Source: a virus. From it: a stretch of DNA of 33,898 nucleotides. Positions 1,981 through 33,898 of this stretch are shown one piece after another. The stretch spans positions 1-33,898 of the IMG/VR virus record IMGVR_UViG_3300049846_000540. One strand, given 5' to 3'. Below the pieces are notes generated by a model. That model did not search any database and was not told where the DNA came from. It saw only the letters and a list, made by a program, of their open reading frames with translations. Each line of letters begins with the position of its first letter. Within the stretch, counting starts at the first letter, position 1. A program made the position numbers and the translations under genes.

Positions 1981-2081
1981 GTTGCGGTGGTGCGCTGCTA
2001 TTCGTCCTAGTTAGTGACTTAGCAGTACCGCGAAGCAGTACAACCCTCACCGCCTACCATACACTTACCTGCCAAAGGCTT

Positions 2082-3542: not shown

Positions 3543-3592
3543 AGCCACGTAGTTACGCAGCCCCTTAGAGCTGCTTGCCTACGTGGCTTTTT
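3543..3592 (+). terminator. Rho-independent terminator after the tail tube gene
   Basis: Outer arms AGCCACGTAG (3543-3552) and CTACGTGGCT (3579-3588) pair perfectly. An inner GCAG/CTGC stem is nested between them, and a T-run follows at 3588-3592. The next gene starts 42 bases later without an obvious promoter, so read-through probably feeds the tail chaperone and tape measure genes at a lower level. Confidence 0.85.
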
Positions 3593-3634
3593 CATGCCTA
3601 CACTGAACTTACCCACATTTCAACGCAACCCCTT

Positions 3635-10300: not shown

Positions 10301-10896
10301 TCACCAGCCTGATGACCACTGGCACAGCCAACTTCCGCGAGTTCGCCACCAGCCTGGTTGCTGACATGACCCGCATCATTGTCCGGCAATTCATCATGCG
10401 CTCACTGATGCAGGCAATAGGTTTCTTGGCCCCGTCACCCGCCGCATCTGGCGCCTCCGGGCTAAGCGCACCGCAACTCAACTTCAGTGCGGCTACTGCC
10501 AACCCACTAGCGTTTGATCCCGGCACGCGCCTGTTTGCCTACGGCGGCGCCTTCGATGCAGCCAACCGCATCGTCCCATTCGCCTATGGCGGCGTCGTCA
10601 ACAAGCCCACGATGTTCAAGTTCGCCGATGGCGGGCTTATGCGTAACGGCGTGGCCGGCGAGGCCGGCCCCGAGGCGATCATGCCCCTCCGCCGCCTCCC
10701 CAGCGGCAGGCTGGGCGTCGAGTCCTCCGGCGGTGGTGCGGCCCCAATCACGATCCAAGTCAACGTGGATGCCAGCGGCAACCAGCAGATGTCTGGCGAC
10801 GCCGGCCAAGGACAAGCGCTTGGCCGAGTGATCGCTGCTGTTGTGCAACAGGAGCTGGTCAATCAGAAACGCCCCGGTGGCCTCTTGGCTTCGTAA
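4321..10896 (+). CDS. Tape measure protein (lambda gpH-like), very long
   Basis: The 2191-residue protein starts at GTG 4321, right after the GT stop and behind AGGAGG at about 4306-4315. The first 500 residues are long helices/coiled coil. At about residues 675-750 is the tape-measure pattern DIHSPSGVSRREVG...GQGIVKG, partly repeated. A weak internal repeat (PLVTLRTS / PIKTLRTS) lies near 1015-1095. A Gly-rich stretch (about 1209-1252) precedes the tape measure N-terminal-type domain (about 1253-1425, ALRGIVKDQASYNTVLAA to LMKFLELLR). Hydrophobic, possibly membrane-inserting segments lie near 1490-1535 and 1560-1580. The C-terminus has the lambda tape-measure C-terminal pattern (about 1977-2026) and GEAGPEAIMPL. 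It sets tail length and is ejected with DNA. Patches with A/T-ending codons alternate with GC-rich ones. Confidence 0.93.
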   Translation: MAQTVEDIVLRLGIKGFDSLDSVRGAFRQLSRVTQASERDITLAREAILNYADAGKVTTRIIDAQIAGLKSLQGQAVINSRTYTQLGADISTLKARFTEATQEVARQTTVLDRQGSRVFGSSVASVKRYTESLRSTRTELAATSRSINATTADVDRLNTSLKAVDNFKLDINVDTTQVTQARGKVASAFAFFKRMTEQAGTPVGATGRIFEGITAGVLAGQATGIGTAAFGGGASALAGLSGRVAELQTGLNKLSGLFGGDLGNKVLGGLSKNLAESSAQFANFQNRIESLSEIANSFTSALSGISPTAAVATGSVITAMAFMRQRVGNELDAVRADIDASFTAITDDIQKLIVELSRLGDYIGRMSMAEIGQQLNRAREAFASVPAGSPRSRSFASQIAGLESVQRGEARAQATVLEEYRDRVRGSSVTVEGLNERLQYLQQRMAGVNRATAEGTEEFRSLAAEATRLQTRITELGRMPTNYAVFAIRQRMAAQRETLAQSGFGAFSSEVRQRYEGIGGVTGERQAAAVREVQEAFGKWEEAYDQMLQVVRDHETAKRAIEEQANREHQARLDHNAVVELAKKKAANDALLAQFDASLKQRDLVARRHSLMAEALGVDGGRELSPLYERVVGLSSSSLRRQQAFMGKSPAEVYNDIVASFETGSRTNLLDNRSQQVGEGIAQGIVKGATDSDTLKKGSKSLVDKYLDFIFGDWDIHSPSGVSRREVGEPIGQGIVKGTVDAIKAGRKQIQAAIQFALGSPAKAPLPGGLGGPVSDVADKLQNFLIRSSARPSATLPFARLLGEGVTNSAALPLATYRRAYERGGIVPPTFLPVEQRRGLRGTAGIPGAGLEEVIRAEAMRAVGRTGAFVGPLASALRREVLQPVTRLSGAVPGISRPSSGATALPVFGTQAPALRQAPGIFAPYDLGRFQTDGPLTRGGQTFGRAAASSSLREALIKYRAATDNFWNGETGTYETLRRIISASAQVGASKLARNLSESRSRSAALSSAASTLIDRVTSPLVTLRTSIQTTAQQAGTKLRSLDIEAVKSVVPTAKQLVDQTLAPIKTLRTSLSTALQQSTTNLRELGSLGLSGLSFGMRGRGGTPPAGGGGNLPPTPPSGPGDSGADRGMDRLNTRLREFGPLSRRSISDLQDLRSVLDELQASLSPLDSDYAALNRQIDKQTAAIDRQLERRDRTRRRPLSGMQMAQGVGAALSGGIFGGPEGLIGGLGGLAFGGVGGAFAGAAAGAQVGMFRQQLAGFADYAASLDKMKIALRGIVKDQASYNTVLAAANAATRELNVPQEAAIGGLTRLSAAILGAGGTVNQSTFAFRALTEAVTATGGKAEQVDGAMLALTQVFSKGKVSAEELNQIAERLPGTYTLFAEATGRTGPQLAKGLEQGKIGLNDLMKFLELLRTKHGQTALEIAASSENAGERLKVAYDKMREDVGRALQPLGAQFQSVFAKALKDATPALINLAQGLAKVIQALGANAGAIALVAKFGVVLTSTIYAGRAFAALGPLVSGAAALMGAAFGRTTAQAIMAERQLKLFAATARATAAALAGPIIISVAIVGADLVIDYFNRIKRAKDRLIQVRSEATGEQFLRDIGGFALDRASVLRVANDVGRRYQVVQDLVVKLQREREQLKKDFEASPSMATYFGAKLNELEPRLQAAIAESALLESRYKTLVRRAPNAPTAPSMPGFAEPPGTAAGAAGAGADAAKQQRDLFQQANEYVNANIELLKARGQLSEEQAATEFDRANLAKKFAIDELTLRKQALDLQKKYNQITPDIYTKSLQTLDVERQKIETAYNKTVAQIGEDISKINEEIFAGLGAPFDQRNVNEFERTLDDLQIRVQRAVVDVSKRGGPAATAFLKRAGELTTADYQRAASRSTVETLTKQITELQRGKGEVTTLDTLIADYGDSWQKLEEPVRKHLEQLATTVDHLKEIQRYKQDPNTYAGLREGALAYVESIGTIRSNVADLAQTGFKGVEDSITSLMTTGTANFREFATSLVADMTRIIVRQFIMRSLMQAIGFLAPSPAASGASGLSAPQLNFSAATANPLAFDPGTRLFAYGGAFDAANRIVPFAYGGVVNKPTMFKFADGGLMRNGVAGEAGPEAIMPLRRLPSGRLGVESSGGGAAPITIQVNVDASGNQQMSGDAGQGQALGRVIAAVVQQELVNQKRPGGLLAS

Positions 10897-12689: not shown

Positions 12690-13294
12690 TGCTGCGCAAA
12701 ATCCGCGTTTATGGCAAGCTGGCATCCTTCCTCGGGCAGCGCACCTTTGAGGCCGCAGTCGATAGCGCAGCCGAGGCTGTGCGCTTCCTGGCGGTCAACT
12801 TCCCCGGCCTGGAGCGCCACATGGCAGACCAGCACTACCGTGTCACTGTCGGCGGTTACGATCTCGGCGAGGATGAACTAGCAGATCCAGTAGGGCAGCA
12901 GGTAATCAAGATCATGCCGGTGATCAGCGGTGCTGGCGGTGGCGTTGGCAAGATAATTGCAGGGGTGGCATTATTTGCTAGTGCTTTTTTCACCGGCGGC
13001 GCCACTATCGGACTGCTTGGACTTGCTGCACCGTTGGCTGTTAGCACTGCATTGGCTGGTGTTGGCATTAGTCTTGCCCTTACTGGTGTTGCGCAATTGC
13101 TATCGCCAACTCCACGCCTGTCAGGCCCAGGCACAAGCGGCAACCGCGAAGCGGACCCACGCGAAAGCTTTAGCTTTAGCGGCATCCAAAACACCAGCCG
13201 GCAAGGTTTGCCAGTGCCGATTGTCTATGGTGAAACTATCGTCGGCAGCGTTGTCATCAGCGCTGGTATCGACACCGTAAGGGTGCGCGGCTGA
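12686..13294 (+). CDS. Tail tip assembly protein (lambda gpI-like)
   Basis: Translation probably starts at ATG 12686, which overlaps the gpK stop as ATGA. An upstream in-frame start at 12635 would overlap gpK by 55 bases. The 202-residue protein has an N-terminal ubiquitin/ThiS-like part ([14 protein letters not shown] to [13 protein letters not shown], about 4-86). A Gly/Ala-rich hydrophobic middle (about 89-140) resembles two membrane helices. The C-terminus contains [15 protein letters not shown]. gpI is needed for tail tip assembly but is not found in mature lambda tails. The stop overlaps the gpJ start by one base (TGATG). Confidence 0.87.
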
Positions 13295-16200
13295 TGGGCA
13301 AACTGATTGCCGGTGCTGGTGGTGGAGGAAGTGGCGGCGGAGCCTCACGATCTGAGCCGCAACGCACTCCAACGGTCGCAGGTGACAGCCTTGACTCGCG
13401 CCAATATGCCACCATCGTTGATCTCATCAGCGAAGGCGAGATCGAAGGCCTGAAGGCCGGCCAGCAGTCAATCATCCTGAACGACACACCGCTTCAAAAT
13501 CCAGACGGCTCATACAATTTTCAAGGTATCACGGTTGATACGCGCACCGGCACACAAGCACAGTCCTACATAGCCATTGCGCCTGACGTAGAAGAAGAGG
13601 TATCTGTCAGCGTTGAGGTGCAATATGGCACGCCAGTAACGCGGCAAATTGCAGACCCTAATGTCAATGCAGTACGGGTTACGCTCACAATTCCACAGCT
13701 GCAGCAGAGCGCAAAAGACGGCAACGTTTACGGGTTATCCGTAACCTATTCTATCGCTGTTCAGTATGACGGCGGTGGCTTTACCACAGTGATTACAGAC
13801 GCAATCTCTGGGCGCACGTCTGATCCATTTCAAACCGATTACATCGTCAACCTAACCGATGGCTTTACCACCGCTGATATTCGTGTAACACGTATCTCAG
13901 TGTCGGATAGCACACGCATTGAGCAAGACTCCAATGTTATCGAGTCCTCTAGCGCAATCCAATGGACCTCATACACTGAGATTATTTACGCCAAACTGCG
14001 GTATCCAAACAGCGCACTGGTAGCGCTACGGCTTGACGCAGAGCAGTTCAATAACATCCCATCACGCGCCTACCACATCCGGGGCATCAAGGTACAAATC
14101 CCTAGCAATGCCACCGTTGATAGCGCAACCGGCCGTTTGACCTATGCCGGCATCTGGAATGGCACCTTTGGCGCTGCGCAGTGGTGTAGCGATCCAGCTT
14201 GGATCCTGTGGGATCTGCTCACCAGCACACGTTACGGATTCGGCGATCACATCAAAGCAGCGCAGCTTGATAAGTGGGCGTTCTTGGCAGCTTCGCAATA
14301 CGCCAGCGAGTTGGTGCCTAATGGCTTCGGCGGGACGGAGCCACGCTTTAGCTGTAATGTCAACATCCAGACGCAAACTGAGGCATACAAGCTGATCAAT
14401 GATCTGTGCAGCGTTATGCGTGTGATGCCCTACTGGGGCATTGGTACGCTAACAATCAGCCAGGACAAGCCAACTGACAGCGCATACCTATTCACGCTAG
14501 CCAATGTCACAGCAGAGGGCTTTAGTTATCAAGGCAGCAGCCGTAAGGCACGACCTACTGTTGCCGTGGTCAGTTACCTTGACCTTGAAACACGTGAGAA
14601 GGCTTACGAGGTAGTTGAGGATCAAGATGGCATAAGCAAATACGGTGTTGTCAAGGAAGAAGTAGACGCTTTTGCCTGCACTAGCCGTGGACAGGCGCAT
14701 CGCCTAGGCGAATGGCTACTCTACTCCGAGCGCTACGAATCTGAGGTGATCAGCTTCACCACCAGCATCGACGCCGGTGTGGTTGTACGCCCTGGCCAAG
14801 TGATCGAGGTGGCAGATCCGCTACGCGCTGGGGTACGTCGTGGTGGACGCATAGCAGCCGCCTCCGCCTCCACTATCACCGTAGACGATGCTACCGGCCT
14901 ATCAGCCGTAGCCGGCGCTGAGTTATCGGTCATCTTGCCAACCGGCGCCGTTGAATCACGCGCTATCCAATCCATTGTTGGCAATAGCATCGTCGTTACC
15001 AGTAATTTCAGTGCCGCACCTAATGCAAACAGCGTATGGGTGTATCAAACCAGCAATATACAAGCATCAACATGGCGGGTGCTGTCTATTACTGAAACAG
15101 ACGAAGGCAATCAGTATGGCGTTACCGCACTGGCCTATAACGCCAGTAAGTACGCCTACGTTGAACGTGACATCGCGCTGCAGCAACGGGACATCACAGA
15201 CCTAAACATCGTCCCGCCACCGCCGATCGACCTGACAGGAAATGAAGTGCTCTATGACGCTGGTGGTATCGCCAAGGCAAAGCTGATCATTAGCTGGCGG
15301 GCGGTTACTGGTGTCACGCAATATCAAGTGCAGTGGCGTCGCGATAGCGATAACTGGAATACCCGCACAGTCAGCAGCCCGGACTATGAGATCCTTGACA
15401 CCACACCAGGCACCTATGCGGTGCGTGTTTACAGCCTCAGCGCATCACTGCTGCCGTCAACACAACCGGCAGAGCTAACTAAGGTAACCGCTGGTAAGAC
15501 GGCACCGCCTGCCACTGTAACTGGACTGTCGCTAATCCCTATCGACACGGCAAGCGCTATCCTCAGCTGGGATCGTGCTACTGAGCTTGATGTGTTGCTG
15601 GGCGGCAAGGTACTGATCCGCCATAACATCGCTAGCACTGGTGCGTTATGGGAGGATAGCCAAGAGATCGTATCAGCAGCAGCCGGAAGCCAGACGCAAA
15701 AGCAAGTGCCATTACTGACCGGCACCTATCTGGTCAAGTTTGAGGATGACGGTGGCCGACGTTCTGCCACCGCTGCCACCGCTGTAGTACAACTGCCGGC
15801 GCCGCAACCGCGCCTACTGGTGCAGTCCTACCGTGAAGATCAAGAGACGCCGCCATTCTCGGGCAATGTCACCGACATGATCTACAGCGCTGAGCTAGAT
15901 GGCCTGATCCTCGCCACCGGTACCAAGATCGACGCATTAGCAACGGATGGCAACTGGGACGCACTAGGTACCATCGACGCCGTAAGCGGCAGCCTGGGCT
16001 CTGGGGAATACGAGTTCGGCAGTACCTTTGATCTAGGTGGCGTATATGACCTTGACATGCGCCGGTATTTTGTCACACGGCCTTATGCGCCTGGCGATCT
16101 GTTCGATGACAATACCGCATTGATTGATACGTGGCCCACCTTTGATGGCACGCTTTATGATGCTGTCAACGCTGCGCTTTATGTACGTTCTACCAACGAC

Positions 16201-16599
16201 GATCCTGGCGCGTCGCCCGCGTGGACGGCATGGCGCGAGTTTGCTAATGCGTTGACCCGTGGCCGCGCATTTCAGTTCAAGACCATTGCTACCAGCACCA
16301 GCAACGATCAAAACATCGTCATCGACGAGCTTGGTTGTGAGCTTGAGTTACAGCAACGCAGCGCCAGCGCTGGCCCGCTGACGACAGCTGCAGCAGCCTA
16401 TGCGGTCACGTTCGCTAACCGCTTCTACCAGGCCCCGCAGCTTGGCATCACCGCATACAACATGGCAACGGGTGATTACTATGTGATCAGCAGCCCCACC
16501 CGGTCTGGGTTCTCGATCACCTTCTACAACGCAGCTAATAGCATGATCTCGCGCCAGTTCAGCTACACTGCCATCGGCTACGGCCGGGAGGTCATCTGA
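13294..16599 (+). CDS. Central tail tip / host specificity protein (lambda gpJ-like)
   Basis: The 1101-residue protein starts with a flexible Gly-rich segment (residues 2-17), then QYATIVDLISEGEIEGL, typical of gpJ. The region up to about residue 640 is the baseplate-hub-like body, including SDPAWILWDLLTSTRYGFGD (about 300-320). Two fibronectin type III-like domains follow (about 640-735 and 740-835). The C-terminal third holds EFGSTFDLGG and DTWPTFDG. It ends in a beta-rich domain (FANRFYQAPQLGITAYN...SYTAIGYG) that resembles lectin-like receptor-binding ends. The protein forms the tail tip hub and probably contacts the host. It runs one base into the next fibre gene. Confidence 0.92.
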   Translation: MGKLIAGAGGGGSGGGASRSEPQRTPTVAGDSLDSRQYATIVDLISEGEIEGLKAGQQSIILNDTPLQNPDGSYNFQGITVDTRTGTQAQSYIAIAPDVEEEVSVSVEVQYGTPVTRQIADPNVNAVRVTLTIPQLQQSAKDGNVYGLSVTYSIAVQYDGGGFTTVITDAISGRTSDPFQTDYIVNLTDGFTTADIRVTRISVSDSTRIEQDSNVIESSSAIQWTSYTEIIYAKLRYPNSALVALRLDAEQFNNIPSRAYHIRGIKVQIPSNATVDSATGRLTYAGIWNGTFGAAQWCSDPAWILWDLLTSTRYGFGDHIKAAQLDKWAFLAASQYASELVPNGFGGTEPRFSCNVNIQTQTEAYKLINDLCSVMRVMPYWGIGTLTISQDKPTDSAYLFTLANVTAEGFSYQGSSRKARPTVAVVSYLDLETREKAYEVVEDQDGISKYGVVKEEVDAFACTSRGQAHRLGEWLLYSERYESEVISFTTSIDAGVVVRPGQVIEVADPLRAGVRRGGRIAAASASTITVDDATGLSAVAGAELSVILPTGAVESRAIQSIVGNSIVVTSNFSAAPNANSVWVYQTSNIQASTWRVLSITETDEGNQYGVTALAYNASKYAYVERDIALQQRDITDLNIVPPPPIDLTGNEVLYDAGGIAKAKLIISWRAVTGVTQYQVQWRRDSDNWNTRTVSSPDYEILDTTPGTYAVRVYSLSASLLPSTQPAELTKVTAGKTAPPATVTGLSLIPIDTASAILSWDRATELDVLLGGKVLIRHNIASTGALWEDSQEIVSAAAGSQTQKQVPLLTGTYLVKFEDDGGRRSATAATAVVQLPAPQPRLLVQSYREDQETPPFSGNVTDMIYSAELDGLILATGTKIDALATDGNWDALGTIDAVSGSLGSGEYEFGSTFDLGGVYDLDMRRYFVTRPYAPGDLFDDNTALIDTWPTFDGTLYDAVNAALYVRSTNDDPGASPAWTAWREFANALTRGRAFQFKTIATSTSNDQNIVIDELGCELELQQRSASAGPLTTAAAAYAVTFANRFYQAPQLGITAYNMATGDYYVISSPTRSGFSITFYNAANSMISRQFSYTAIGYGREVI

Positions 16600-22528: not shown

Positions 22529-22574
22529 CGCAGCCTGGTGCGGTAGTCTACAAAAGTAGTCACGGCGACACGCC

Positions 22575-22850: not shown

Positions 22851-22983
22851 CGCCAACACGACCACGATGATCGCAATCGGCGTCGCCGCTACAAGCGAGA
22901 TCATCGGCATCAGCCCACTGCGTTCCAATAGCATCCTCCAGCTGCTTCTGCAGGTGGCACGCCTTGTTTTCCCCAAGCGGTGA
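22840..22983 (+). CDS. Small hydrophobic protein of the lysis cassette
   Basis: The 47-residue protein starts at ATG 22840 and overlaps the previous gene by 11 bases. It reads MALDANTTTMIAIGVAATSE, then IIGISPLRSNSILQLLLQVA and ends RLVFPKR. One weak hydrophobic helix and an amphipathic C-terminal helix with a basic end are visible. I recall similar short proteins with SEIIG...N..(I/L)QL(L/V)L in cyanophages, usually near fibre or lysis genes. A holin-related role is plausible but unproven. The endolysin starts five bases after its stop. Confidence 0.68.
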   Translation: MALDANTTTMIAIGVAATSEIIGISPLRSNSILQLLLQVARLVFPKR

Positions 22984-22987
22984 GCTA

Positions 22988-24049
22988 ATGAGTTCCCTGC
23001 GCCTCGCTGACCTGTTCCGCTACTACAAAGCACTGCCACATCAGCTGGCGGCCATCACCGAACTGGAAGCGGCCATCATCGCTGCTGATCCCGCGCTGCT
23101 CGATCGCGACCAGTCGTGGTTCAAAACATGGAGCGCCGCCGGTCAACAAGCGGATCTCGCCGCTGCTATCGCGCTGCTCAAGGAGTTCGAGGGCTGCCAC
23201 CTAAGCGCCTACCCGGATCCGCTCAGCGGTGGTGATCCTTGGACCATCGGCTACGGCACCACGCGCTACAGCGCCGGTGAACCCGTCAAGCGCGGCGACA
23301 AGATCACCGTGATCGAAGCTGACATGCTGCTCCGCCTTGAGGTGGATCGCATCGCCGATAAACTCCGTGCCACGGTGCCACACTGGCAGGCCATGAGTGA
23401 TGCGCAGAAGTCAGCGCTGGTCAGCTTCGCCTATAATCTCGGCGTTGACTTCTACGGTGCTTCAGGTTTCGAGACCATCTCACGCTGCCTGCGTGATCGC
23501 GACTGGGAGGCAGTGCCAGCAGCGTTTGAGTTGTACCGCAACCCCGGCACATCCGTCGAAGCGGGTCTGCTTCGCCGACGTAAGGCCGAGGGGCACCTCT
23601 GGGGTATCACCACACCAGTACCAGCAGCCAAGATCACACCAAACAGCAGCTTCACCACGCGCTTGACGCCGCACATTACCTTGGGCGAGTTCGCACTTAA
23701 TCAGCAGGCGCGACGCTTTGATCATCAACATCAGCTCGATACCGCAGCTGAGCTGGCTGCCTTCATGGAGCGTGCTCGCACCGCATTTGGTGGTAAGCCG
23801 GTCATCATCACTAGCGGCTACAGGCCAGCAGCGATCAATCGCGCAGTTGGTGGCGCCAGTGGCAGCGAGCACCTATACAACGCACCTAATGTCGGCGCTG
23901 TGGACTTCTACATCGACGGTGTAGACATCTACAAGCTGCAGGACTGGTGTGATAAGCACTGGCCATACTCCCTAGGCTACGGCGCACCTAAGGGTTTCGT
24001 ACACCTCGGCATCCGCGCCGGCAGACCTCGCGTCAGGTGGGACTATTGA
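22988..24049 (+). CDS. Bifunctional endolysin: GH24 lysozyme plus M15 peptidase
   Basis: The start is taken as ATG 22988; the longer frame from a TTG at 22964 overlaps the previous gene. The 353-residue enzyme has a helical N-terminus (1-60). A T4-lysozyme-type domain (about 62-205) follows with the catalytic triad pattern Glu68 (FEGC), Asp77 (AYPDP) and Thr86 (WTIGYG). A C-terminal peptidase M15-type domain (about 222-342) has candidate zinc ligands His295 (SGSEHL), Asp306 (GAVDF) and His339 (GFVHLG). It would cut both glycan strands and peptide stems. No signal peptide is visible, so release depends on a holin. The stop overlaps a possible TTG start of the next gene. Confidence 0.92.
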   Translation: MSSLRLADLFRYYKALPHQLAAITELEAAIIAADPALLDRDQSWFKTWSAAGQQADLAAAIALLKEFEGCHLSAYPDPLSGGDPWTIGYGTTRYSAGEPVKRGDKITVIEADMLLRLEVDRIADKLRATVPHWQAMSDAQKSALVSFAYNLGVDFYGASGFETISRCLRDRDWEAVPAAFELYRNPGTSVEAGLLRRRKAEGHLWGITTPVPAAKITPNSSFTTRLTPHITLGEFALNQQARRFDHQHQLDTAAELAAFMERARTAFGGKPVIITSGYRPAAINRAVGGASGSEHLYNAPNVGAVDFYIDGVDIYKLQDWCDKHWPYSLGYGAPKGFVHLGIRAGRPRVRWDY

Positions 24050-24228: not shown

Positions 24229-24508
24229 TGGCACCAATCTCGTTCCAAAGCGCAGCGCAAAGCAGCAGTTCCGTGAGCACATCTTCAACGCCTGGAACCA
24301 CTGCTGTGCATACTGCAGCGCTCCTGCCGACACCCTAGATCACGTAAAACCTAGGCATAAGGGAGGTAGTACGGTCACAAACAACCTAGTGCCCGCCTGC
24401 CAATCTTGCAACCGCAGCAAAGGAAGTGAAGACTGGCTTGCTTGGTACATGCGTCAATCTACCTATAGTCACCTACGCATTAGTCGCATCCAGCAGTGGT
24501 TGGCCTAG
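24212..24508 (+). CDS. HNH endonuclease
   Basis: About 98 residues from a likely GTG start at 24212; an ATG at 24161 in the same frame would overlap the previous gene by 68 bases. The HNH fold is clear: CCAYCSAPADTLDHVKPRHK (CxxC at 32-35, Asp43-His44) then NNLVPACQSCNRSKG (Asn58, CxxC 63-66, Asn67). The paired CxxC motifs hold a structural zinc. Such compact HNH nucleases in phages act either in DNA packaging together with terminase or as homing enzymes. The position at the end of the late block does not decide between these. Confidence 0.85.
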   Translation: MDHAIDGTNLVPKRSAKQQFREHIFNAWNHCCAYCSAPADTLDHVKPRHKGGSTVTNNLVPACQSCNRSKGSEDWLAWYMRQSTYSHLRISRIQQWLA

Positions 24509-24534
24509 GCTAAAGGCAGCAAGCAGTACGCCTT

Positions 24535-24825
24535 ATGGCCGACGACATGGCGTGGTTGACCGGGGAGCTTAGCCTTCCCTCGCAGCTTCACCAAGAACTG
24601 GATCGCCGAGCTGCTGCCAAACTCAGTCGAGACGAGCTGTCGATCTTGGTGGATCGTCTAATCACAGAGTGGTATCGTCACACCACTACCATCGACGCTC
24701 TGCTTGGTAAAGTTCGCCATCTGCAAGTCGAACTAGCCTTAAGCAGTGGCATACAGGGTATTCCACCGCCATCGGCTGAGCATTACGATATGGCTAAGCA
24801 GCTTGGTGCTCACCCAGATGGCTAA
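24535..24825 (+). CDS. Hypothetical helical protein at the end of the late strand
   Basis: The 96-residue protein starts at CTTATG (ATG 24535) without a Shine-Dalgarno. It is mostly helical: LHQELDRRAAAKLSRDELSI and LVDRLITEWYRHTTTIDALL, then a heptad-like KVRHLQVELALSSG. Similar helical proteins with LSRDxL occur in cyanophages as far as I recall, without a known role. Its last codons are the first copy of a 28-bp tandem duplication that extends past the stop. It is the last gene on the plus strand before the convergent minus block. Confidence 0.65.
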   Translation: MADDMAWLTGELSLPSQLHQELDRRAAAKLSRDELSILVDRLITEWYRHTTTIDALLGKVRHLQVELALSSGIQGIPPPSAEHYDMAKQLGAHPDG

Positions 24826-24845: not shown

Positions 24846-25138
24846 AAAGCGGCGCAGTCCTTTGCGTGGGACCCGCCGCTTTGCTTTCCCTCCGGGAACC
24901 CGAGACTGCAAACACCCTTCACGAAGTGCCAGTGAATACACTGCTGGCACCGCGCCTTACCCTCAGCAAGAACATAGGCGTCTGCGTACAACTGCTCTGC
25001 CTGCATAAGCGCCGTCTCTAGGTCTACAGCGCGTATGCTTACTTCAATCAACCCTTGCTTAGTCCGCAGGCGTAGCAGCCAACCCTCAGCTTGAGGGATC
25101 AGCACCATCTTACCTGAGTGGTATCGTAGCGAGGGCAT
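24830..25138 (-). CDS. Hypothetical protein with Cys-rich, zinc-ribbon-like C-terminus
   Basis: Up to 102 residues from ATG 25138; an internal ATG at 25108 (MVLIPQAEGW) is an alternative start. The N-terminal half is beta-rich with a helix (VDLETALMQAEQLYADAYV). The C-terminal half carries CQQCIHWHFVKGVCSLGFPE and GGSHAKDCAAF: four cysteines at about 64, 67, 76 and 91 that could bind zinc. I have seen this kind of CxxCxHW...CSLGFPE...DC tail in cyanophage hypotheticals. It overlaps the upstream kinase gene by 29 bases, suggesting coupled expression, and ends the minus-strand block. Confidence 0.7.
   Translation of the reverse strand: MPSLRYHSGKMVLIPQAEGWLLRLRTKQGLIEVSIRAVDLETALMQAEQLYADAYVLAEGKARCQQCIHWHFVKGVCSLGFPEGKQSGGSHAKDCAAFWVST
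24846..24882. terminator. Bidirectional terminator-like hairpin at the convergence point
   Basis: AAAGCGGCG (24846-24854) pairs perfectly with CGCCGCTTT (24874-24882), and an inner GTCC/GGAC stem (57-60 with 69-72) extends it. On the minus strand the arm runs into five T. On the plus strand TTTGCTTT follows. The hairpin overlaps the last codons of the minus-strand gene, so it more likely stops late plus-strand transcripts. Confidence 0.65.
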
Positions 25139-25652
25139 CAGCTAGATCCTGGAGCGTACCGTTATTGGTAATATACCGCGAAAAATGTGGCCAACCATCC
25201 AAACTACCTTCGGAAGAGTGGTCTGTATCACGCAACTGCCCAGGCCGTTCTACGTGCCACACCTCACCTCCAAGTTCCCTAATAAGTTCAGCCTCGTTAA
25301 CAAACCTTACGTCATCCACAACTACCCGGTTGTAGTGGCGCACGCGGCGTTTCCATACGCGCAACCACACATCAGGCGAGACGCATGTACGCCCCCATTC
25401 TGTACCTAAGGTTTGCTGCAGATGACGTGACGTAACCCCCAAGGGCTCCACGCGCTCATGCTTGTCACAATAAAGGATCCTCTCTACATCAAAATCGCTG
25501 TATCCCAACTCTTCAAGCAGAGGCGTAAGCATCAACTTTAGAGGTTCTGCGAACGGCACCCGTACATACCCTTTATCGCTTAGGTACGTGCCGGTTGTGG
25601 TTTTTCCGCTTTGGGGAGCGGGAGAATAGAGTCCGATGATGTGCGTAGACAT
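25110..25652 (-). CDS. P-loop kinase, putative deoxynucleoside monophosphate kinase
   Basis: The 180-residue protein starts at ATG 25652 and begins STHIIGLYSPAPQSGKTTTG, a slightly unusual P-loop (SPAPQSGKT). DKGYVRVPFAEPLKLMLTPL is like the dNMP-binding region of T4 gp1-type kinases. RVVVDDVRFVNEAELIRELG (Walker-B-like VVVDDVRF) and a C-terminal HVERPG follow. The enzyme would phosphorylate dNMPs for phage DNA synthesis. Its grouping with thyX and dCTP deaminase on the same strand supports this. A general AAA-type kinase of unknown substrate is the alternative. The end overlaps the next gene. Confidence 0.8.
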   Translation of the reverse strand: MSTHIIGLYSPAPQSGKTTTGTYLSDKGYVRVPFAEPLKLMLTPLLEELGYSDFDVERILYCDKHERVEPLGVTSRHLQQTLGTEWGRTCVSPDVWLRVWKRRVRHYNRVVVDDVRFVNEAELIRELGGEVWHVERPGQLRDTDHSSEGSLDGWPHFSRYITNNGTLQDLADALATIPLR

Positions 25653-25697: not shown

Positions 25698-26588
25698 TTA
25701 TTGAAGACGCGCCTTACTCAAGTGAAAGCGCATCTTATTGTGAGCGCACTCCAGTCTCTGACGTACACGCTCCCGAGACACACCGTCTTCGGCAGCGATA
25801 CTTGGCATAGAACGCGGTTCACCTCCATTCAGCCCGTAGCGACGACTGATTGTGTAAAGCTCCGCCTCGCTTAGGCAAGCTAGGCCTACGCGCAACATCG
25901 CTGCTTTTTCGTCGCGCTCCATGCACTCTCGCTGCGCAGTAGCGCTTGATTCGTCAGCAATTAAATCAATCATGTTACTGCCATCTTCTACAGCAGACGT
26001 ATCCAAACTACAGTGATTGACATTACGAGCCAAGAGCATACGAAGGTGCTCAGGCTCAACCTCTACGGCCTCCGCCATTTCCTGCAGAGAAGGCAATCTC
26101 CCGTGTTGCTGCATAAAGGTTTTCTGAAACTTTGTAGCCTTATACACAGTCTCTAAGCTGTGCTGCGGCACTCGAATCAACCGCTCCTTAGTGTCAATAC
26201 CACGTGTTATGGCTTGACGTACCCACCAATAAGCATAGGTGGAGAACTTGTAGCCCTTTGTACTGTCGAACAGTTCGACGGCTCGCGTAAGTCCAAAGGC
26301 ACCCTCCTGCACTAAGTCCATAAGTTCTAGTCCTGTTCCGCTAAGGCGATGCGTGTACTGCTTAGCAAGATGCACTACTAAGCGCAAATTAGAGTTGATA
26401 AGGTCGCGCTTTGCTCTCTCTCCTCGCTTGATGACGCGCTTCTGGGCAGGTGTGGGATCATGTACGTCACGCAAAGCTTGCATCGCATCGACTTGGCGTG
26501 ACAGCTCAATCTCTTGTGCGGGTGTGAGCAACGGATAGCGTGAAATCTCATTGAGATACGCTTTGACAGAATCGTGCATAATGCGCAT
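25698..26588 (-). CDS. RNA polymerase sigma factor, sigma-70 family
   Basis: The likely start is ATG 26588 (a TTG three bases upstream and ATG 26579 are alternatives), giving 296 residues. It contains DSVKAYLNEISRYPLLTPAQ (region 1.2, about 6-25). Region 2 (about 60-130) has LINSNLRLVVHLAKQY, MDLVQEGAFGLTRAVELFD and KFSTYAYWWVRQAI. Region 3 (about 138-215) starts RLIRVPQHSLETV, and region 4 (about 235-296) has a helix-turn-helix at SIAAEDGVSRERVRQRLECA. Region 1.1 is missing, as in alternative sigma factors. The style resembles cyanobacterial group 2/3 sigma factors rather than the short T4 gp55. It would redirect host RNA polymerase to phage or selected host promoters. Full length, no lesions seen. 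Confidence 0.93.
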   Translation of the reverse strand: MRIMHDSVKAYLNEISRYPLLTPAQEIELSRQVDAMQALRDVHDPTPAQKRVIKRGERAKRDLINSNLRLVVHLAKQYTHRLSGTGLELMDLVQEGAFGLTRAVELFDSTKGYKFSTYAYWWVRQAITRGIDTKERLIRVPQHSLETVYKATKFQKTFMQQHGRLPSLQEMAEAVEVEPEHLRMLLARNVNHCSLDTSAVEDGSNMIDLIADESSATAQRECMERDEKAAMLRVGLACLSEAELYTISRRYGLNGGEPRSMPSIAAEDGVSRERVRQRLECAHNKMRFHLSKARLQ

Positions 26589-26616
26589 CAAGGTAAGAAC
26601 AGAATGAGATGGAAAT

Positions 26617-26790
26617 CTATAGAGTAACAGTCACATCAAACACATAGCGGGGGCCGCTGCTGTGTGATGTATAGGTCTCGAAAGACACTCCACTAATGGT
26701 AAGTCCGGTGTTACGTGCAAACGCATTAGCGGTGTCGGCAAACACGCGAAGCAGTTCCTCTTTAGCCTGAGTCGCTTCCTCAATGCTCAT
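26617..26790 (-). CDS. Small hypothetical protein upstream of the sigma factor
   Basis: A 57-residue protein starting MSIEEATQAKEELLRVFADT and ending YVFDVTVTL with TAG 26617-26619. Its ATG overlaps the stop of the upstream gene (ATGA at 26787-26790). The layout is helix, then GLTISGVSFETYT and a beta hairpin. No family recognised. The coupling and balanced codon use make it a likely gene. It lies 28 bases before the sigma gene, so they may share a transcript. Confidence 0.68.
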   Translation of the reverse strand: MSIEEATQAKEELLRVFADTANAFARNTGLTISGVSFETYTSHSSGPRYVFDVTVTL

Positions 26791-27049: not shown

Positions 27050-27559
27050 TTACCCTAAGCTCCCTTGGACTGTGGAGCTTCCGTTGTATCTTCCAGTCAC
27101 CGCATAGCTGCGCTGGGGGATCCCCGCCATCAGGTCGAAGACCATTTGGCCAATTTTCATTCCCGGCCAGATCGGGAGCGAGTGCAGCTGGCGGCTATTG
27201 ACCAACTCAAGGGTCAGGACCCCGTAGAATCCCGGATCGGCGTAGCCGGCCAGCAGGTGCTCAGTCCCCTCGCGGGCGCGGGAGGACTTGAGCACGAACT
27301 GTCCCGCAACATCATCGGGCAGGTGGAACGTCTCGGCCGTGCAGGCCAACACGAACTGTCCAGGCCGGAGCAGGTAGGGGTTCTGCTCCGTGTGGCCGGC
27401 AAACGGGTAGGGCACTAGTTTCGCCCCCTCGGCGGACTCGATCAGCAGCGTGTCGCCGAGCCTTAAGTCAAGGCTGGCCGGACCCACCAGCTCGGGGTCA
27501 AAGGGCGTCACCATGCCGCCGTTGCAGCGGGCGATGATCTGCCAGTCGGGGAGGATCAC
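27050..27559 (-). CDS. dcd: dCTP deaminase
   Basis: The 169-residue protein starts at GTG 27559, overlapping the upstream stop as GTGA. Family motifs are present: GPASLDLRLGD (about 26-36), KSSRAREG (91-98) with the likely catalytic Ser/Arg pair, AGYADPGFYGVLTLELVN (104-121) with candidate catalytic Glu118, and the nucleotide-binding end PGMKIGQMVF. It converts dCTP to dUTP, the first step from cytidine to thymidine nucleotides; whether it also has dUTPase activity cannot be told. It lies downstream of thyX on the same strand and would feed the substrate dUMP to it. A large hairpin follows the stop. Confidence 0.92.
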   Translation of the reverse strand: MILPDWQIIARCNGGMVTPFDPELVGPASLDLRLGDTLLIESAEGAKLVPYPFAGHTEQNPYLLRPGQFVLACTAETFHLPDDVAGQFVLKSSRAREGTEHLLAGYADPGFYGVLTLELVNSRQLHSLPIWPGMKIGQMVFDLMAGIPQRSYAVTGRYNGSSTVQGSLG

Positions 27560-27774
27560 TGCTCTACCTCCTGCTGCGCCGAGGCAAAATGCCCAGTGAC
27601 AGAGGCCGGCTCCCTGCCACCGGGCACAGCCGGTCCATCTGCCGCTTGGGCGAGGCCGGTGTAGAGCGCGTGCATGGGATGGTCCGGGTTGTCGCGGCCA
27701 TCGGCCAGGTAGAGCGCGTCGAGGTGGCCTTGACGTGCCTGTTGTTCAGTCGGATTGCAGTCGGAACTGACCAT
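27556..27774 (-). CDS. Small hypothetical protein before dcd
   Basis: The 72-residue protein starts at ATG 27774 and contains QQARQGHLDALYLADGRDNP and HPMHALYTGLAQAA, then a loose C-terminus. Short proteins with LYxxDGRDxPxHPxHxxYTGL are, as far as I recall, frequent in cyanophages without a known function. Its stop overlaps the dcd start by four bases. The overlapping 102-residue frame (27564-27872) runs through an octamer repeat and is rejected. Confidence 0.7.
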   Translation of the reverse strand: MVSSDCNPTEQQARQGHLDALYLADGRDNPDHPMHALYTGLAQAADGPAVPGGREPASVTGHFASAQQEVEQ

Positions 27775-27849
27775 AGGGACCTAAGGGGGGTGTGGTGGAA
27801 CGGGGGTAGACGGGAGACAAGGTAGCACAGTAGTTGCGTGGCGTCTAGG

Positions 27850-27897
27850 CAGCCAAACAGCCAAACAGCCAAGCAGCCAAGCAGCTAAGGAGCTAAG
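27850..27897. repeat. Six tandem 8-bp units at the 3' end of thyX
   Basis: Units read CAGCCAAA, CAGCCAAA, CAGCCAAG, CAGCCAAG, CAGCTAAG, GAGCTAAG on the plus strand. The last units contain the thyX stop (27885-27887) and last codons. The others fill part of the 110-base gap before the next minus-strand gene. The rest of that gap (27775-27849) holds no gene. Confidence 0.85.
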
Positions 27898-28610
27898 CGA
27901 GCCTTATGCAGGCGGTGCTTCTCGTACCAAGCAGCGATCTCCGGCGCCCACGTCTGCAGGTGCGGCCACATCAGCTCGCACAAGGCGCGGATCTCCTCCT
28001 GGGCGTCGAGCTTGGCGCGTAGGTCCATGAAGTGCAGGAAGGCCCGCAGAGAGAAGCTCACCACGAAGTGTTGCCTGTAGTCGAATGGCAAGATTCCACG
28101 AGCGTGTTCCTCTGCATAACCGCGCTCAAGTAGGTCGCGGTAGCGTTCAGCAGCATGACGACACATGCGCAAATCTATACCGCGCTGCAGCTGTGTGTAG
28201 TCGTACTGCTTGCCCTGTCGATCTTTGTAAACACCTACAGGCCGTAGGTAGAACACGTCCTCTAGGGCTATCGCGCCCTCAGCAGCTTGACATACCCGTT
28301 TACCGGTATAACGCATAGATTGCACATCAAAGCTCACGCCGACCCGGTGTGTGCGGGCCTGCTGCATCACGCTATGCGGAAACCAGCCGATATTAAGCGT
28401 GATCTGCGGATGCTCCAACGGTCCGTAGTGACCACGCTCACCGGCCAACAGCTTGCGAACGATCGTATGGCCGCATACGGTTTCATCCGGCAACTGCTCA
28501 TCAGCCACAAACGTCTCGGCGTAGTCCTGGTGCATCGCGGCGTAGATGCACTGCTGCGGATTAGGCGTAGCGGCGATCACCTCAACCCGGAAATGAGAAT
28601 CAAGCACCAT
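27885..28610 (-). CDS. thyX: Flavin-dependent thymidylate synthase ThyX
   Basis: I take ATG 28610 as the start (MVLDSHFRVEVIAATPNPQQ), which overlaps the upstream gene by 11 bases; a longer frame to 28706 would overlap it far more. The 241-residue enzyme has the ThyX signature RTHRVGVSFDVQSMRY (residues 86-101), equivalent to the family motif RHRxxSxxxxSxRY. The helical body includes HPQITLNIGWFPHSVMQQA and HFVVSFSLRAFLHFMDLR, typical of FAD and dUMP binding. It makes dTMP from dUMP using FAD and methylenetetrahydrofolate. It is the last gene of a chain of overlapping genes, and its 3' end contains the octamer repeat. Confidence 0.95.
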   Translation of the reverse strand: MVLDSHFRVEVIAATPNPQQCIYAAMHQDYAETFVADEQLPDETVCGHTIVRKLLAGERGHYGPLEHPQITLNIGWFPHSVMQQARTHRVGVSFDVQSMRYTGKRVCQAAEGAIALEDVFYLRPVGVYKDRQGKQYDYTQLQRGIDLRMCRHAAERYRDLLERGYAEEHARGILPFDYRQHFVVSFSLRAFLHFMDLRAKLDAQEEIRALCELMWPHLQTWAPEIAAWYEKHRLHKARLAP

Positions 28611-28794
28611 AAGAAGGTGGAGTAGAGGACGTGGAGCGTAGCATTTGATCAAGGTACATTTCAGCCTGCCAGCGATCTTCGCACGATCGACAGATGCCAT
28701 GCGCACAGACGCGGTGATAGGTCATCCCGCGCTCATCCTGCAGCACCTCGATGGTGCCGCCGTCGCGCTCTATCCGGTCGATCAGCTCCGTCAT
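28600..28794 (-). CDS. Small Cys-containing hypothetical protein before thyX
   Basis: The 64-residue protein starts at ATG 28794, overlapping the tiny membrane gene as ATGA; a GTG at 28818 is less likely. It contains LIDRIERDGGTIEVLQDERG and VCAHGICRSCEDRWQAEMYL: three cysteines in a short HGICRSC context that could bind metal. It overlaps thyX by 11 bases. No family is known to me; the C-terminal DRWQAEMYLDQ helix is shared in style with cyanophage hypotheticals. Confidence 0.65.
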   Translation of the reverse strand: MTELIDRIERDGGTIEVLQDERGMTYHRVCAHGICRSCEDRWQAEMYLDQMLRSTSSTPPSYGA

Positions 28795-28880
28795 GGCAGG
28801 ATCTTGGACGCTACCCACAAGCTAAGCAGGCACACCACCACATAAGCTACGGCGAGGACGCCGAACTCGTTGAGGCTCAC
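28791..28880 (-). CDS. Tiny 29-residue single-pass membrane protein
   Basis: Reading from GTG 28880 the peptide is MSLNEFGVLAVAYVVVCLLS followed by LWVASKILP and TGA (28791-28793). One clear membrane helix (about 7-24) and a basic end are visible. The start overlaps the stop of the gene before it (GTGA) and the stop overlaps the next start (ATGA). It therefore fits exactly into the coupled chain, the main reason to call it a gene. Function unknown. Confidence 0.65.
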   Translation of the reverse strand: MSLNEFGVLAVAYVVVCLLSLWVASKILP

Positions 28881-29299
28881 TCGCCCACCTCCGGCAGCGG
28901 CAGGGCGTGGGCGGGGAGCCAGGCTTTGACCTCGTCAACCAGCCATTCGCGGCGGATCATTCGCCACCTGCCGCTGTAGGGGATCGGATCATGCTGCACC
29001 CATCCCCAGCACCACTGTCCCTCACCTGTTCGCGGATTAGTGGTGCAATCCCCCGGCCCCGGTAGGCGCTCGCTCACCGGTACCGGCTGCGGTGGGTTCA
29101 GGCGCTGCAGCAGCTCGGCGGCGCGGTCCAGTCGATCAGCTTGGCGTATATCAAACGGGGATGGATCGCCTTCTCCGGGTCTACCACGGCGCCTCCAGTG
29201 AGCGATGCCTGTGAGCGTACGCACCAACTCCGCCACCTCCCCATCGGCTGGGGGTGCGGGCTCAGGCGGTTCATCTGCCAGGGCGGCGCGGATGGTCAT
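28877..29299 (-). CDS. DUF551-type hypothetical protein, chimeric
   Basis: The 140-residue protein starts at ATG 29299, overlapping the upstream stop as ATGA; the longer frame to 29404 lies inside that gene. The N-terminal 63 residues (RAALADEPPEPAPPADGEVA to RLDRAAELL) are encoded by a 180-bp segment that is repeated in the gene at 29496. The C-terminal part carries VSERLPGPGDCTTNPRTGEG, WCWGWV and WLPAHALPLPEVGE. This is the DUF551 signature seen in many phages, function unknown. So this is an N-terminal module joined to a DUF551 end. Confidence 0.8.
   Translation of the reverse strand: MTIRAALADEPPEPAPPADGEVAELVRTLTGIAHWRRRGRPGEGDPSPFDIRQADRLDRAAELLQRLNPPQPVPVSERLPGPGDCTTNPRTGEGQWCWGWVQHDPIPYSGRWRMIRREWLVDEVKAWLPAHALPLPEVGE
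29112..29291 (-). repeat. Perfect 180-bp direct repeat, copy 1
   Basis: Identical by eye to 29530-29709, offset 418 bp. It spans 60 codons inside the DUF551 gene in the same reading frame as the other copy. Confidence 0.92.
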
Positions 29300-29499
29300 G
29301 AGTCGAGTTCGTCGGCGATGGTCATGAGGATGCGTCGCTCTTGGGGGCAGTAGAGCGCAGCAGCACGCAGGGCGGCGACGACCGATGCGCGTTCCAAAGC
29401 CCACAAGTTGTCATCTTTGGGGATGTTGTCTGCGTAGGTAGCCAGCACGGCATCACGCACTGCCTGCGCGGCTGGGCTCAGTGGGATGGGGTTAGTCAT
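29296..29499 (-). CDS. Small LSPAAQAV-family hypothetical protein
   Basis: The 67-residue protein starts at ATG 29499 in the upstream stop (ATGA). It reads MTNPIPLSPAAQAVRDAVLA, a middle ERASVVAALRAAALYCPQ and an end RRILMTIADELDS. It is a paralogue of the gene at 30486 (LSPAAQAVLDAV...AALRAVADQVVP...LALATELENHQ). Both are all-helical. I recall such proteins being common in freshwater cyanophages, often in several copies. Role unknown; a regulatory or anti-host role is only a guess. Confidence 0.72.
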   Translation of the reverse strand: MTNPIPLSPAAQAVRDAVLATYADNIPKDDNLWALERASVVAALRAAALYCPQERRILMTIADELDS

Positions 29500-29795
29500 T
29501 GGTTCTCCAGCTCGGTGGCGATGGTAAGAAGCTCGGCGGCGCGGTCCAGTCGATCAGCTTGGCGTATATCAAACGGGGATGGATCGCCTTCTCCGGGTCT
29601 ACCACGGCGCCTCCAGTGAGCGATGCCTGTGAGCGTACGCACCAACTCCGCCACCTCCCCATCGGCTGGGGGTGCGGGCTCAGGCGGTTCATCTGCCAGG
29701 GCGGCGCGGGCGCGGTTCATGGCGCCAACGATGTCGTCTCCTTTTAGCCAAGCGTCAACCAGCTCAGCGCACAAGGCGCGAAATGCGTCAGCCAT
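29496..29795 (-). CDS. Chimeric small protein carrying the duplicated module and an ELENQ end
   Basis: Translation starts at ATG 29795 (MADAFRALCAELVDAWLKGD), overlapping the upstream stop by 8 bases, and gives 99 residues. The frame open to 30113 is poly-Leu translated from the microsatellite and is rejected. Residues about 30-90 are encoded by copy 2 of the 180-bp repeat. The last residues LLTIATELENQ match the ends of other genes in the array. So the gene combines a private N-terminus, the shared module and a shared C-terminal tail. Confidence 0.72.
   Translation of the reverse strand: MADAFRALCAELVDAWLKGDDIVGAMNRARAALADEPPEPAPPADGEVAELVRTLTGIAHWRRRGRPGEGDPSPFDIRQADRLDRAAELLTIATELENQ
29530..29709 (-). 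repeat. Perfect 180-bp direct repeat, copy 2
   Basis: Second copy of 29112-29291, in the same reading frame but inside a gene with different 5' and 3' ends. No mismatch was seen, including synonymous positions. Confidence 0.92.
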
Positions 29796-30979: not shown

Positions 30980-31074
30980 CGTTTGTAGTGAATGAGGTGG
31001 TGAATGGCTATCCAAAGAATCGGATTGGCTAGAAAACCAATCGCAAATGCTTGGATAAAGCGGGGGTCATCCAT
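30976..31074 (-). CDS. Tiny 32-residue single-pass membrane protein
   Basis: From ATG 31074 the peptide reads MDDPRFIQAFAIGFLANPIL then WIAIHHLIHYKR and TGA (30976-30978). A hydrophobic helix (about 7-26) and a basic tail are visible. The start overlaps the upstream stop by 8 bases and the stop overlaps the next start as ATGA, so it is in phase with the chain on both sides. Function unknown. Confidence 0.65.
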   Translation of the reverse strand: MDDPRFIQAFAIGFLANPILWIAIHHLIHYKR

Positions 31075-31453
31075 TGTTCTCCAGCTCCTGCAGCCGCTCC
31101 AGGGCGCGGCGGCTCAGTTCCAAGGTTTCGCGCACCTCTATCAAAAGCACTCGGTTTGGGTCGTCCAGAATGGCGTTGGTTTGTGCCAGCGCCTGTTCTC
31201 TTAGGCTCGCCGGCCTGGGGCGGCGGGCGGCGCGGAGTTCAGCAAGTCGAAACTTCGGAGCCACAAACCACCTCCCAGGGCCAGCGATGTACTCAATACA
31301 CGCCTCCAGCTCCTGATCAGCGCCAGCGCGGTAGGCGGCGATGACCAAGTGCCGCTCTCGGGCGACGCCAGCATCGCGGATGTCACGCGGCGCATCGTTG
31401 CGCAATTTCTCTACCAACTCTGGTGGCGGGGTGATCGGGTGTTGTTCAGTCAT
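31067..31453 (-). CDS. ITPP-family hypothetical protein with ELENNG end
   Basis: The 128-residue protein starts at ATG 31453 (MTEQHPITPPPELVEKLRND), 8-base overlap with the gene before it; the frame open to 31492 is longer but uncoupled. Features are AYRAGADQELEACIEYIAGP, ELRAARRPRPASLREQAL and RRALERLQELENNG. It is a clear paralogue of the gene at 31672. The last 41 bases of coding sequence are identical between the two. I recall proteins of this type in cyanophages, function unknown. Confidence 0.8.
   Translation of the reverse strand: MTEQHPITPPPELVEKLRNDAPRDIRDAGVARERHLVIAAYRAGADQELEACIEYIAGPGRWFVAPKFRLAELRAARRPRPASLREQALAQTNAILDDPNRVLLIEVRETLELSRRALERLQELENNG
31072..31112 (-). repeat. 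41-bp direct repeat at a gene 3' end, copy 1
   Basis: Identical to 31677-31717. It codes the shared ALERLQELENN tail and includes the start of the next gene, so the repeat spans a gene junction. Confidence 0.9.
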
Positions 31454-31679
31454 TGGCACTAGGGATAGGGTACATTTCCATTGCTTGATCAACTAAGTCG
31501 TCAAGCGTAGGCAAGCCAGAAAAACCTGTATCAAACGCAGCAAGAGAATGTGTAACTTTGTACCTTTCCCCTGTTTCTGCGGAAATCCAGAAGTGAGAAT
31601 CAGGCATCCTTTCAATCCGCAACCCTGGGGCTGCTTTGATCCAGCGGTAACGAGCAGCGTCACGTTCAAGATCAGTCAT
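31446..31679 (-). CDS. Hypothetical protein, RDAARYRW type
   Basis: The 77-residue protein starts at ATG 31679, overlapping the upstream stop by 8 bases (ATGACTGA); an upstream in-frame start at 31739 is rejected. It begins MTDLERDAARYRWIKAAPGL and has a beta-rich middle (HFWISAETGERYKVTHSL). It ends PTLDDLVDQAMEMY. Small proteins with (R)DAxRYRWL and a C-terminal LDxxxDxAM helix are common in phages of many hosts; function unknown. It sits between two ITPP-family paralogues. Confidence 0.75.
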   Translation of the reverse strand: MTDLERDAARYRWIKAAPGLRIERMPDSHFWISAETGERYKVTHSLAAFDTGFSGLPTLDDLVDQAMEMYPIPSAND

Positions 31680-32046
31680 TGTTCTCCAGCTCCTGCAGCC
31701 GCTCCAGGGCGCGGCGGATGATGTCGGTGTTGGTACCAAGCCCGTGCGCTTTCAGGTCAGCGTGCAGTGAATCGAGCTGCGTCAGCGCCTGCTCTTTCAA
31801 GCTCGGCGGCTTAGGGCGCATGGCGGCGCGGAGTTCTTCAGTGCCAGAAATTAAGCACCTTCTGTGCAGCCACTCACAGTCAGCGTTCAGCTGCTGGTCA
31901 GCGCCCCAGCGGGCGACCTGGATGGCGACGTACTCTGTGAATCCAACGTTGACCCTGACCTTGAGCCGATACCAGTCGTCGCACCACTCCTGCACCAGCT
32001 CCTCTGGCGGGGTGATCGGGTGTTGCCGCTGGTCAAACATAGTCAT
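31672..32046 (-). CDS. ITPP-family hypothetical protein with ELENND end
   Basis: The 124-residue protein starts at ATG 32046 behind GAGAGG six bases upstream. It carries QHPITPPEELVQEWCDDWYR, QVARWGADQQLNADCEWLHR, ELRAAMRPKPPSLKEQALTQ and IIRRALERLQELENND. It is a paralogue of the gene at 31067 (shared HPITPP, GADQ, RP-P-SL-EQAL and RALERLQELENN). It is the first gene of the coupled chain and the only one there with a visible Shine-Dalgarno, so it may drive translation of the rest. Function unknown. Confidence 0.8.
   Translation of the reverse strand: MTMFDQRQHPITPPEELVQEWCDDWYRLKVRVNVGFTEYVAIQVARWGADQQLNADCEWLHRRCLISGTEELRAAMRPKPPSLKEQALTQLDSLHADLKAHGLGTNTDIIRRALERLQELENND
31677..31717 (-). 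repeat. 41-bp direct repeat at a gene 3' end, copy 2
   Basis: Second copy of the 31072-31112 repeat, at the end of the other ITPP-family gene and again covering the next gene's ATG. Confidence 0.9.
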
Positions 32047-33572: not shown

Positions 33573-33898
33573 CTACTTAGCGGCGGCCCAGCTGGGCCCG
33601 TCGTTGGCCTCAGCCAGGGGCGGAATGATCCCCAACCACAGGCTCTCAGCGTCTTCCATCACCTTCTGCAGTGTCTGCTTCCAGTACGTGGTTTCATCAT
33701 CGCGGACCAGCAGCAGGATTTCGTCATGCACCACAGCAGCCAGCTTGGCGTAGTCCTCACCCGCCTTAAGCAGGTAAGGCCACAACTTACCAAGAGCACA
33801 CTTAAGCACAGCTGCACCACTACCTTGCACAGGCGTGTTACAGCGCACCGTAACCCTATTCATATCACCAGGCAAGAACCTACGCATCCCACTAATAG
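33573..33898 (-). CDS. DNA polymerase family A, C-terminal part (5' end outside window)
   Basis: About 108 residues are visible; the frame is open to the window edge and reads ISGMRRFLPGDMNRVTVRCN, so the ATG at 33887 is internal. Next is NTPVQGSGAAVLKCAL, typical of the palm/fingers junction, and AAVVHDEILLLVRDD. The latter contains motif C (VHDE), whose Asp is one of the two catalytic metal ligands. The C-terminal helix (YWKQTLQKVMEDAESLWLG) and the end PSWAAAK complete the gene, with TAG at 33573-33575. It would replicate the phage genome. The polymerase gene is the most upstream minus-strand gene in the window. Motifs A and B and any exonuclease domain are beyond the edge. Confidence 0.93.
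   Translation of the reverse strand, partial: ISGMRRFLPGDMNRVTVRCNTPVQGSGAAVLKCALGKLWPYLLKAGEDYAKLAAVVHDEILLLVRDDETTYWKQTLQKVMEDAESLWLGIIPPLAEANDGPSWAAAK

Follow-up and report, generated by a model that had tools for sequence, protein, structure and literature searches.

Which genes does a complete σ70-family factor serve when a siphovirus-like cyanophage encodes it for itself? The question is raised by a minus-strand gene (25698..26588) of a 33,898-base IMG/VR virus record, the whole of which was analysed and is called the window below. The original prediction, made from the letters of the DNA, proposed that such a factor may retarget the host RNA polymerase (RNAP), whose choice of genes is made by its σ factor, either to the late genes of the phage or to stress or night genes of the host.

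The σ gene and its surroundings

The open frame is real: it is intact from an ATG at 26588, encodes 296 amino acids on the minus strand, and the plus strand over the same interval contains many stop codons. The closest relatives, which have no start codon upstream of residue 4, begin at the position of the ATG at 26579, corresponding to a product of 293 amino acids. One copy of the gene is present in the record. The four Pfam regions were found in order, each above its gathering score, namely region 1.2 (Sigma70_r1_2, residues 6-36, 6.3e-13), region 2 (residues 63-134, 2.2e-18), region 3 (residues 146-219, 1.6e-9) and region 4 (residues 236-287, 3.5e-7), so that the matches cover residues 6-287 and the prediction of a full-length σ70 factor with regions 1.2 to 4 intact is borne out. 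The σ70 identity of the frame is confirmed far beyond chance. The protein also belongs to phrog_351, “RNA polymerase sigma factor” (1e-76), and its fold is certain, since closely related σ factors have been solved.

The top NCBIfam model for the protein was TIGR02997, which describes cyanobacterial RpoD/SigA (1.7e-79). Since the score of 267.2 bits lies under the curated cut-off of 384.5 bits, the protein is filed as a phage sister clade and not as a member of TIGR02997. Models of group 3 σ factors also scored under their cut-offs (SigF, 76.8 of 261 bits; SigBFG, 90.3 of 234 bits). Two stretches that align with DNA-reading motifs are the same as in host factors: RQAITR, at the −10-reading motif of region 2.4, and SRERVRQ, at the −35-reading motif in the recognition helix of region 4.2. 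Because these stretches match the host factors, the phage protein is predicted, by established knowledge of σ70 factors, to read ordinary −10 elements; from its residues, region 4 does not appear to be obviously disabled. Between regions 2.1 and 2.2, most phage sequences in the alignment carry four inserted residues, which are missing from every cellular σ factor aligned with them.

The window carries on its plus strand a siphovirus tail module with a tape measure gene (4321-10896), a central fibre J gene (13294-16599), minor tail and fibre genes and an endolysin gene (22964..24049), the latter near the end of this late arm and convergent with the σ gene. An HNH endonuclease gene is found on the same strand. 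The minus-strand replication/nucleotide arm extends from 25110 to the right window edge. It includes a deoxynucleoside monophosphate (dNMP) kinase-like gene (25110..25652) directly downstream of the σ gene and, upstream of it, genes for a dCTP deaminase (27050-27559) and a thymidylate-synthase-like protein (27885-28706), with a DNA polymerase fragment (33573..33887) at the window edge. As can be seen from these positions, the σ gene lies near the end of the replication/nucleotide arm and head-on to the late arm. A single consensus match, TAGATT (26614..26619, minus strand), 31 nt before the ATG at 26588, may be the −10 element of a putative promoter of the σ gene. Records of the “linear” type are often fragments, and this one is probably partial, since neither a terminase nor a portal or major capsid gene could be recognised in the window proteins that were scanned.

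Two minus-strand genes of the replication arm (31067-31492 and 31672-32046) belong to phrog_32006, a family without an assigned function, and appear to be a tandem duplication; a relative of this family lies upstream of the σ gene in 26 loci.

Relatives and origin of the factor

The closest annotated homologues are encoded by Synechococcus phages S-CBS1 (48% identity), KBS-S-2A (46%), S-CBS3 (42.5%) and S-LBS1 (33%). The proteins of S-CBS1 and S-CBS3 are annotated as RpsD4 (“rpsD4, group 2 sigma”) and those of KBS-S-2A and S-LBS1 as RpoD. All four are homologous to the window factor over its full length, and their genes are likewise convergent with lysozyme/late genes. They differ from the window gene in sequence (33-48% identity) and in their other neighbours, the downstream gene in the window being the dNMP kinase-like one. 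The genes next to the σ gene on its upstream side are oriented the opposite way in S-LBS1, whose σ sequence is too divergent for the tree described below. The σ70 factors of two further cyanosiphoviruses, P-SS2 (ORF113, type II sigma) and S-CBS2 (RpoD), are encoded at other genomic positions; the former has a very long branch and is too divergent to be placed reliably, and the latter was outside the tree set. The authors of the P-SS2 study proposed that this phage modulates the host polymerase with its own σ factor (PMC2784084), and putative σ factors have been reported in 65 of 153 cyanophage genomes (PMC10452541). Given these RpoD- or RpoS-like annotations in S-CBS1, S-CBS3, KBS-S-2A, S-LBS1, P-SS2 and S-CBS2, the rarity among cyanophages that the original prediction implied does not hold.

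An IMG/VR search returned at least 596 candidate stretches encoding a relative of the factor, and the best 80 of these were analysed. Among them, one contig (L006) encodes an identical protein, and the gene is intact and syntenic over all 80 distinct contigs, with identity falling to about 41%. Wherever the respective neighbour was detected in these best 80 of at least 596 candidates, the endolysin gene was downstream on the opposite strand (59 of 59 relatives), as was the fibre J gene (18 of 18), while the DNA polymerase fragment was upstream on the same strand (8 of 8); these counts are not independent, because related contigs share ancestry. In 19 relatives of the same set, a dNMP kinase-like gene is found downstream on the same strand. 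Such conservation of an intact frame and its position down to about 41% identity, together with the conserved functional motifs, makes it very improbable that the gene is a passenger, or is decaying, without a role in the phage cycle.

The origin of the factor was analysed by maximum likelihood (support values are bootstrap/SH-aLRT) in a set that combined phage sequences with group 1 and group 2 factors of five cyanobacterial genomes, further cyanobacterial loci and σ factors of other phyla. A first quick tree was rebuilt without its long-branch rows, which included P-SS2, S-CREM2 and S-LBS1. The resulting tree unites 33 phage sequences in a single clade (100/97), whose sister (100/98) consists of Synechococcus/Prochlorococcus group 2 σ factors. 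Both are nested within cyanobacterial group 2, and the group 1 (SigA) clade stands apart (100/99). By its position, the phage factor therefore belongs with group 2 and not with group 1, as expected from the cyanobacterial alternative-σ style noted in the original prediction, and the phage clade is not placed with unrelated bacteria. A resemblance to T4 gp55 had been denied in that prediction, and rightly so: the factor is not a reduced σ closest to gp55 homologues but has all four regions, and the σ factor of the cyanomyovirus S-CREM2 matches it at only 27% and, in the first quick tree, was placed far outside with a long branch.

Besides the DNA-reading motifs, the phage factors and their picocyanobacterial sister have in common that regions 1.2 and 2.1 are separated by a short spacer. 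The cellular proteins differ in being chromosomally encoded, in lacking the four-residue insertion of most phage members and in their full-length identity to the phage factor, which among the cellular factors found is about 45% at best. Since even the best full-length similarity is this low, the gene is not a recent acquisition from a sampled host. By its sequence relationships, it is an old transfer from picocyanobacterial (Synechococcus/Prochlorococcus) group 2 that then evolved within cyanosiphoviruses. With full-length homology and a clade common to it and the S-CBS1, S-CBS3 and KBS-S-2A proteins, and with the same location at the end of a replication arm convergent with the lysis/late arm, the window factor is another member of a known, old and widespread cyanosiphovirus σ family and, in the window, an expected component.

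The same divergence of the phage clade from every host σ factor found, and the location of the gene among phage replication genes, speak against the idea that the factor is an auxiliary gene product that mainly switches on a host regulon, such as carbon metabolism or stress genes. According to a review (PMC10452541), the S-CBS3 homologue (42.5% identical) enhanced the growth of Synechococcus elongatus PCC 7942 and raised acetyl-CoA 1.9-fold; in that experiment, the protein overexpressed was a distant homologue and the strain was not a host, and we regard a primarily host-directed role as quite improbable.

Two phage rows of the tree lie outside the main clade, those of Microcystis phage MaAM05 and of the unverified “Enterococcus phage” record OR846618.1 (L206). 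The σ factor of the latter groups with primary SigA of Bacillota and is probably bacterial contamination. The σ factors of the Prochlorococcus contigs AG-402-N23 and AG-673-M19 (L093 and L142) are group 2 factors that belong to the cellular sister clade.

Promoter-like signals upstream of late genes

Host-type promoters (TTGACA/TATAAT) were not enriched in the window relative to shuffled sequences, and 13 phage genomes or contigs likewise showed no consistent enrichment over shuffles. A search for 22-mers repeated between genes and a comparison of word counts in sense and antisense orientation yielded no late motif that holds up given the number of words tested. Two candidates were rejected in the course of this search: TTTTCAT followed by TAnnnT, which represents terminator T-runs and then a −10 element, and CAAGACC (11 of 11 occurrences in the sense orientation), which lies in contexts of different kinds, several apparently being coding sequence missed by the gene finder.

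A strong signal came from a positional scan of late-arm genes in a set of 36 phage genomes and contigs, with 463 genes after removal of redundancy. TANNNT peaks 25-34 nt upstream of the late start codons (123 vs. 40 expected); the top late hexamer in these genes is TAGACT (13 vs. 0.7 expected), and the pattern TA[CG]A[ACG]T is found 32 times (4.4 expected). A purine is present 7 nt after the hexamer, at the expected position of the start site, in 35 of 37 TA[CG]A[ACG]T sites (A in 25, G in 10), and no −35 element is apparent around these 37 sites. In the window itself, such −10-like sites precede only a few late genes, and none was found upstream of the tape measure gene. Candidate late −10 elements on the plus strand are TACACT at 2060..2065 (22 nt before the ATG at 2082), TACACT at 3599..3604 (36 nt before the ATG at 3635, directly after a terminator-like T-run), TAGTCT at 22544..22549 (31 nt before the ATG at 22575) and TAGGCT at 24506..24511 (29 nt before the ATG at 24535).

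A late-arm T-run resembling a terminator and followed immediately by a −10-like element, in an overlapping terminator-promoter arrangement, is seen at 3599 in the window, at 7340-7391 in S-CBS1 and at 7565-7616 in S-CBS3. Within the window, T-run regions were noted on the plus strand at 470-500 and at 3560-3604.

As a host control, we used three picocyanobacterial genomes with G+C contents of 35, 58 and 69%, one of them matched to the phages in G+C. The TANNNT peak is present at the same distance in hosts, being strong in the two G+C-rich genomes and weak in the AT-rich one, and the absence of −35 elements from S. elongatus promoters has been published (PMC3219970). Since the −10-only architecture is thus host-like, the hexamer preference is the one feature that may be specific to the phages; and since short leaders are host style as well, host σ factors may themselves read the late sites. 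The host hexamers do differ (TAAGTT, TAGGTT, TAGGGT or AT-rich). C at hexamer position 5 is found in 45% of late sites vs. 12-19% in hosts; after collapse by protein family, this difference has p=2e-4 against the two G+C-rich hosts and is suggestive only (p=0.08) when compared with the background of the phages themselves. TAGACT remains, with genes collapsed in the same way, in 8 late families from 12 contigs. In small samples from single phages, S-CBS2, which encodes a different RpoD-like factor, also prefers C at position 5 (16 sites), and S-CBS4 has A rather than C there (22 sites).

These data bear on whether the factor is a generalist, supplying additional or stress-proof σ for the −10-only promoters that host group 1/2 factors also read, so that both phage arms remain transcribed when SigA is limiting (in the dark or in stationary phase), with no late-specific switch. 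Such a role would fit the DNA-reading motifs, which in regions 2.4 and 4.2 are nearly unchanged from those of the host factors, as well as the architecture shared with host promoters and a weaker TANNNT peak 25-34 nt upstream of early-arm genes (43 vs. 15). The invariant position of the gene at the replication-arm end, convergent with the late arm, and the distribution of TAGACT, which accounts for 15 of 146 late-arm sites, 2 early sites and 0 of 316 sites in the three host genomes, argue against it, and we consider it unlikely, though less so than a host-directed role.

A proposed role in late transcription

We favour, with a probability of roughly 0.6, the reading that the factor, descended from picocyanobacterial group 2, retargets the host RNAP to the late (tail and lysis) genes through −10-only promoters. 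The protein would be expressed where the replication arm ends, presumably before the late genes, and would bind the host RNAP core in place of a host σ factor. The polymerase carrying it would then be directed to the late arm, which runs the opposite way. The promoters there would be of the −10-only TANNNT type, favour TAGACT and have short leaders, and the phage factor, rather than a host one, would read them. Of the two targets named in the original prediction, the late genes are consistent with the layout and with the late-promoter signal, and nothing was found in support of host stress or night genes.

The late promoter element of T4 is TATAAATA. If the late-switch reading is true, the likeness to gp55 would lie in a phage σ factor that acts with the host core at −10-only late promoters; the differences are that the window factor has the complete set of regions 1.2 to 4 and that the late −10 element is TAGACT-like instead of TATAAATA. 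That these viruses possess a σ subfamily of their own, dedicated to late genes and acting, independently of gp55, at a TAGACT-type −10-only promoter peculiar to it, is a more tentative proposition, to which we give somewhat less than even odds. If true, cyanophages would have a second way of transcribing late genes besides gp55, and a full-length σ factor inherited as a core gene by many small cyanosiphoviruses would represent a means of late transcription unrelated to gp55. What the present analysis adds is a firm phylogenetic place, a conserved position and a late-promoter hypothesis, which is testable also in the cultured phages KBS-S-2A, S-CBS1, S-CBS3 and S-LBS1; the promoters and the factor may in addition provide parts for use in cyanobacteria.

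Several repeats were observed in the window. An exact 22-base direct repeat, AGCTCGGCGGCGCGGTCCAGTC, occurs at 29112-29133 and 29530-29551, about 420 bases apart, and further similar repeat pairs are located within 27621-29696. HIP1 (GCGATCGC) has no occurrence in the window or its three closest long relatives, G006 (L211-L212), G007 (L213-L215) and G009 (L229-L230). CTTAGC/GCTAAG is over-represented about 2- to 3-fold in the window and these three relatives (39 vs. 20, 74 vs. 27, 89 vs. 42 and 57 vs. 24); the excess is missing from the other cyanosiphoviruses checked, and the hexamer is possibly a clade-specific repeated signal.
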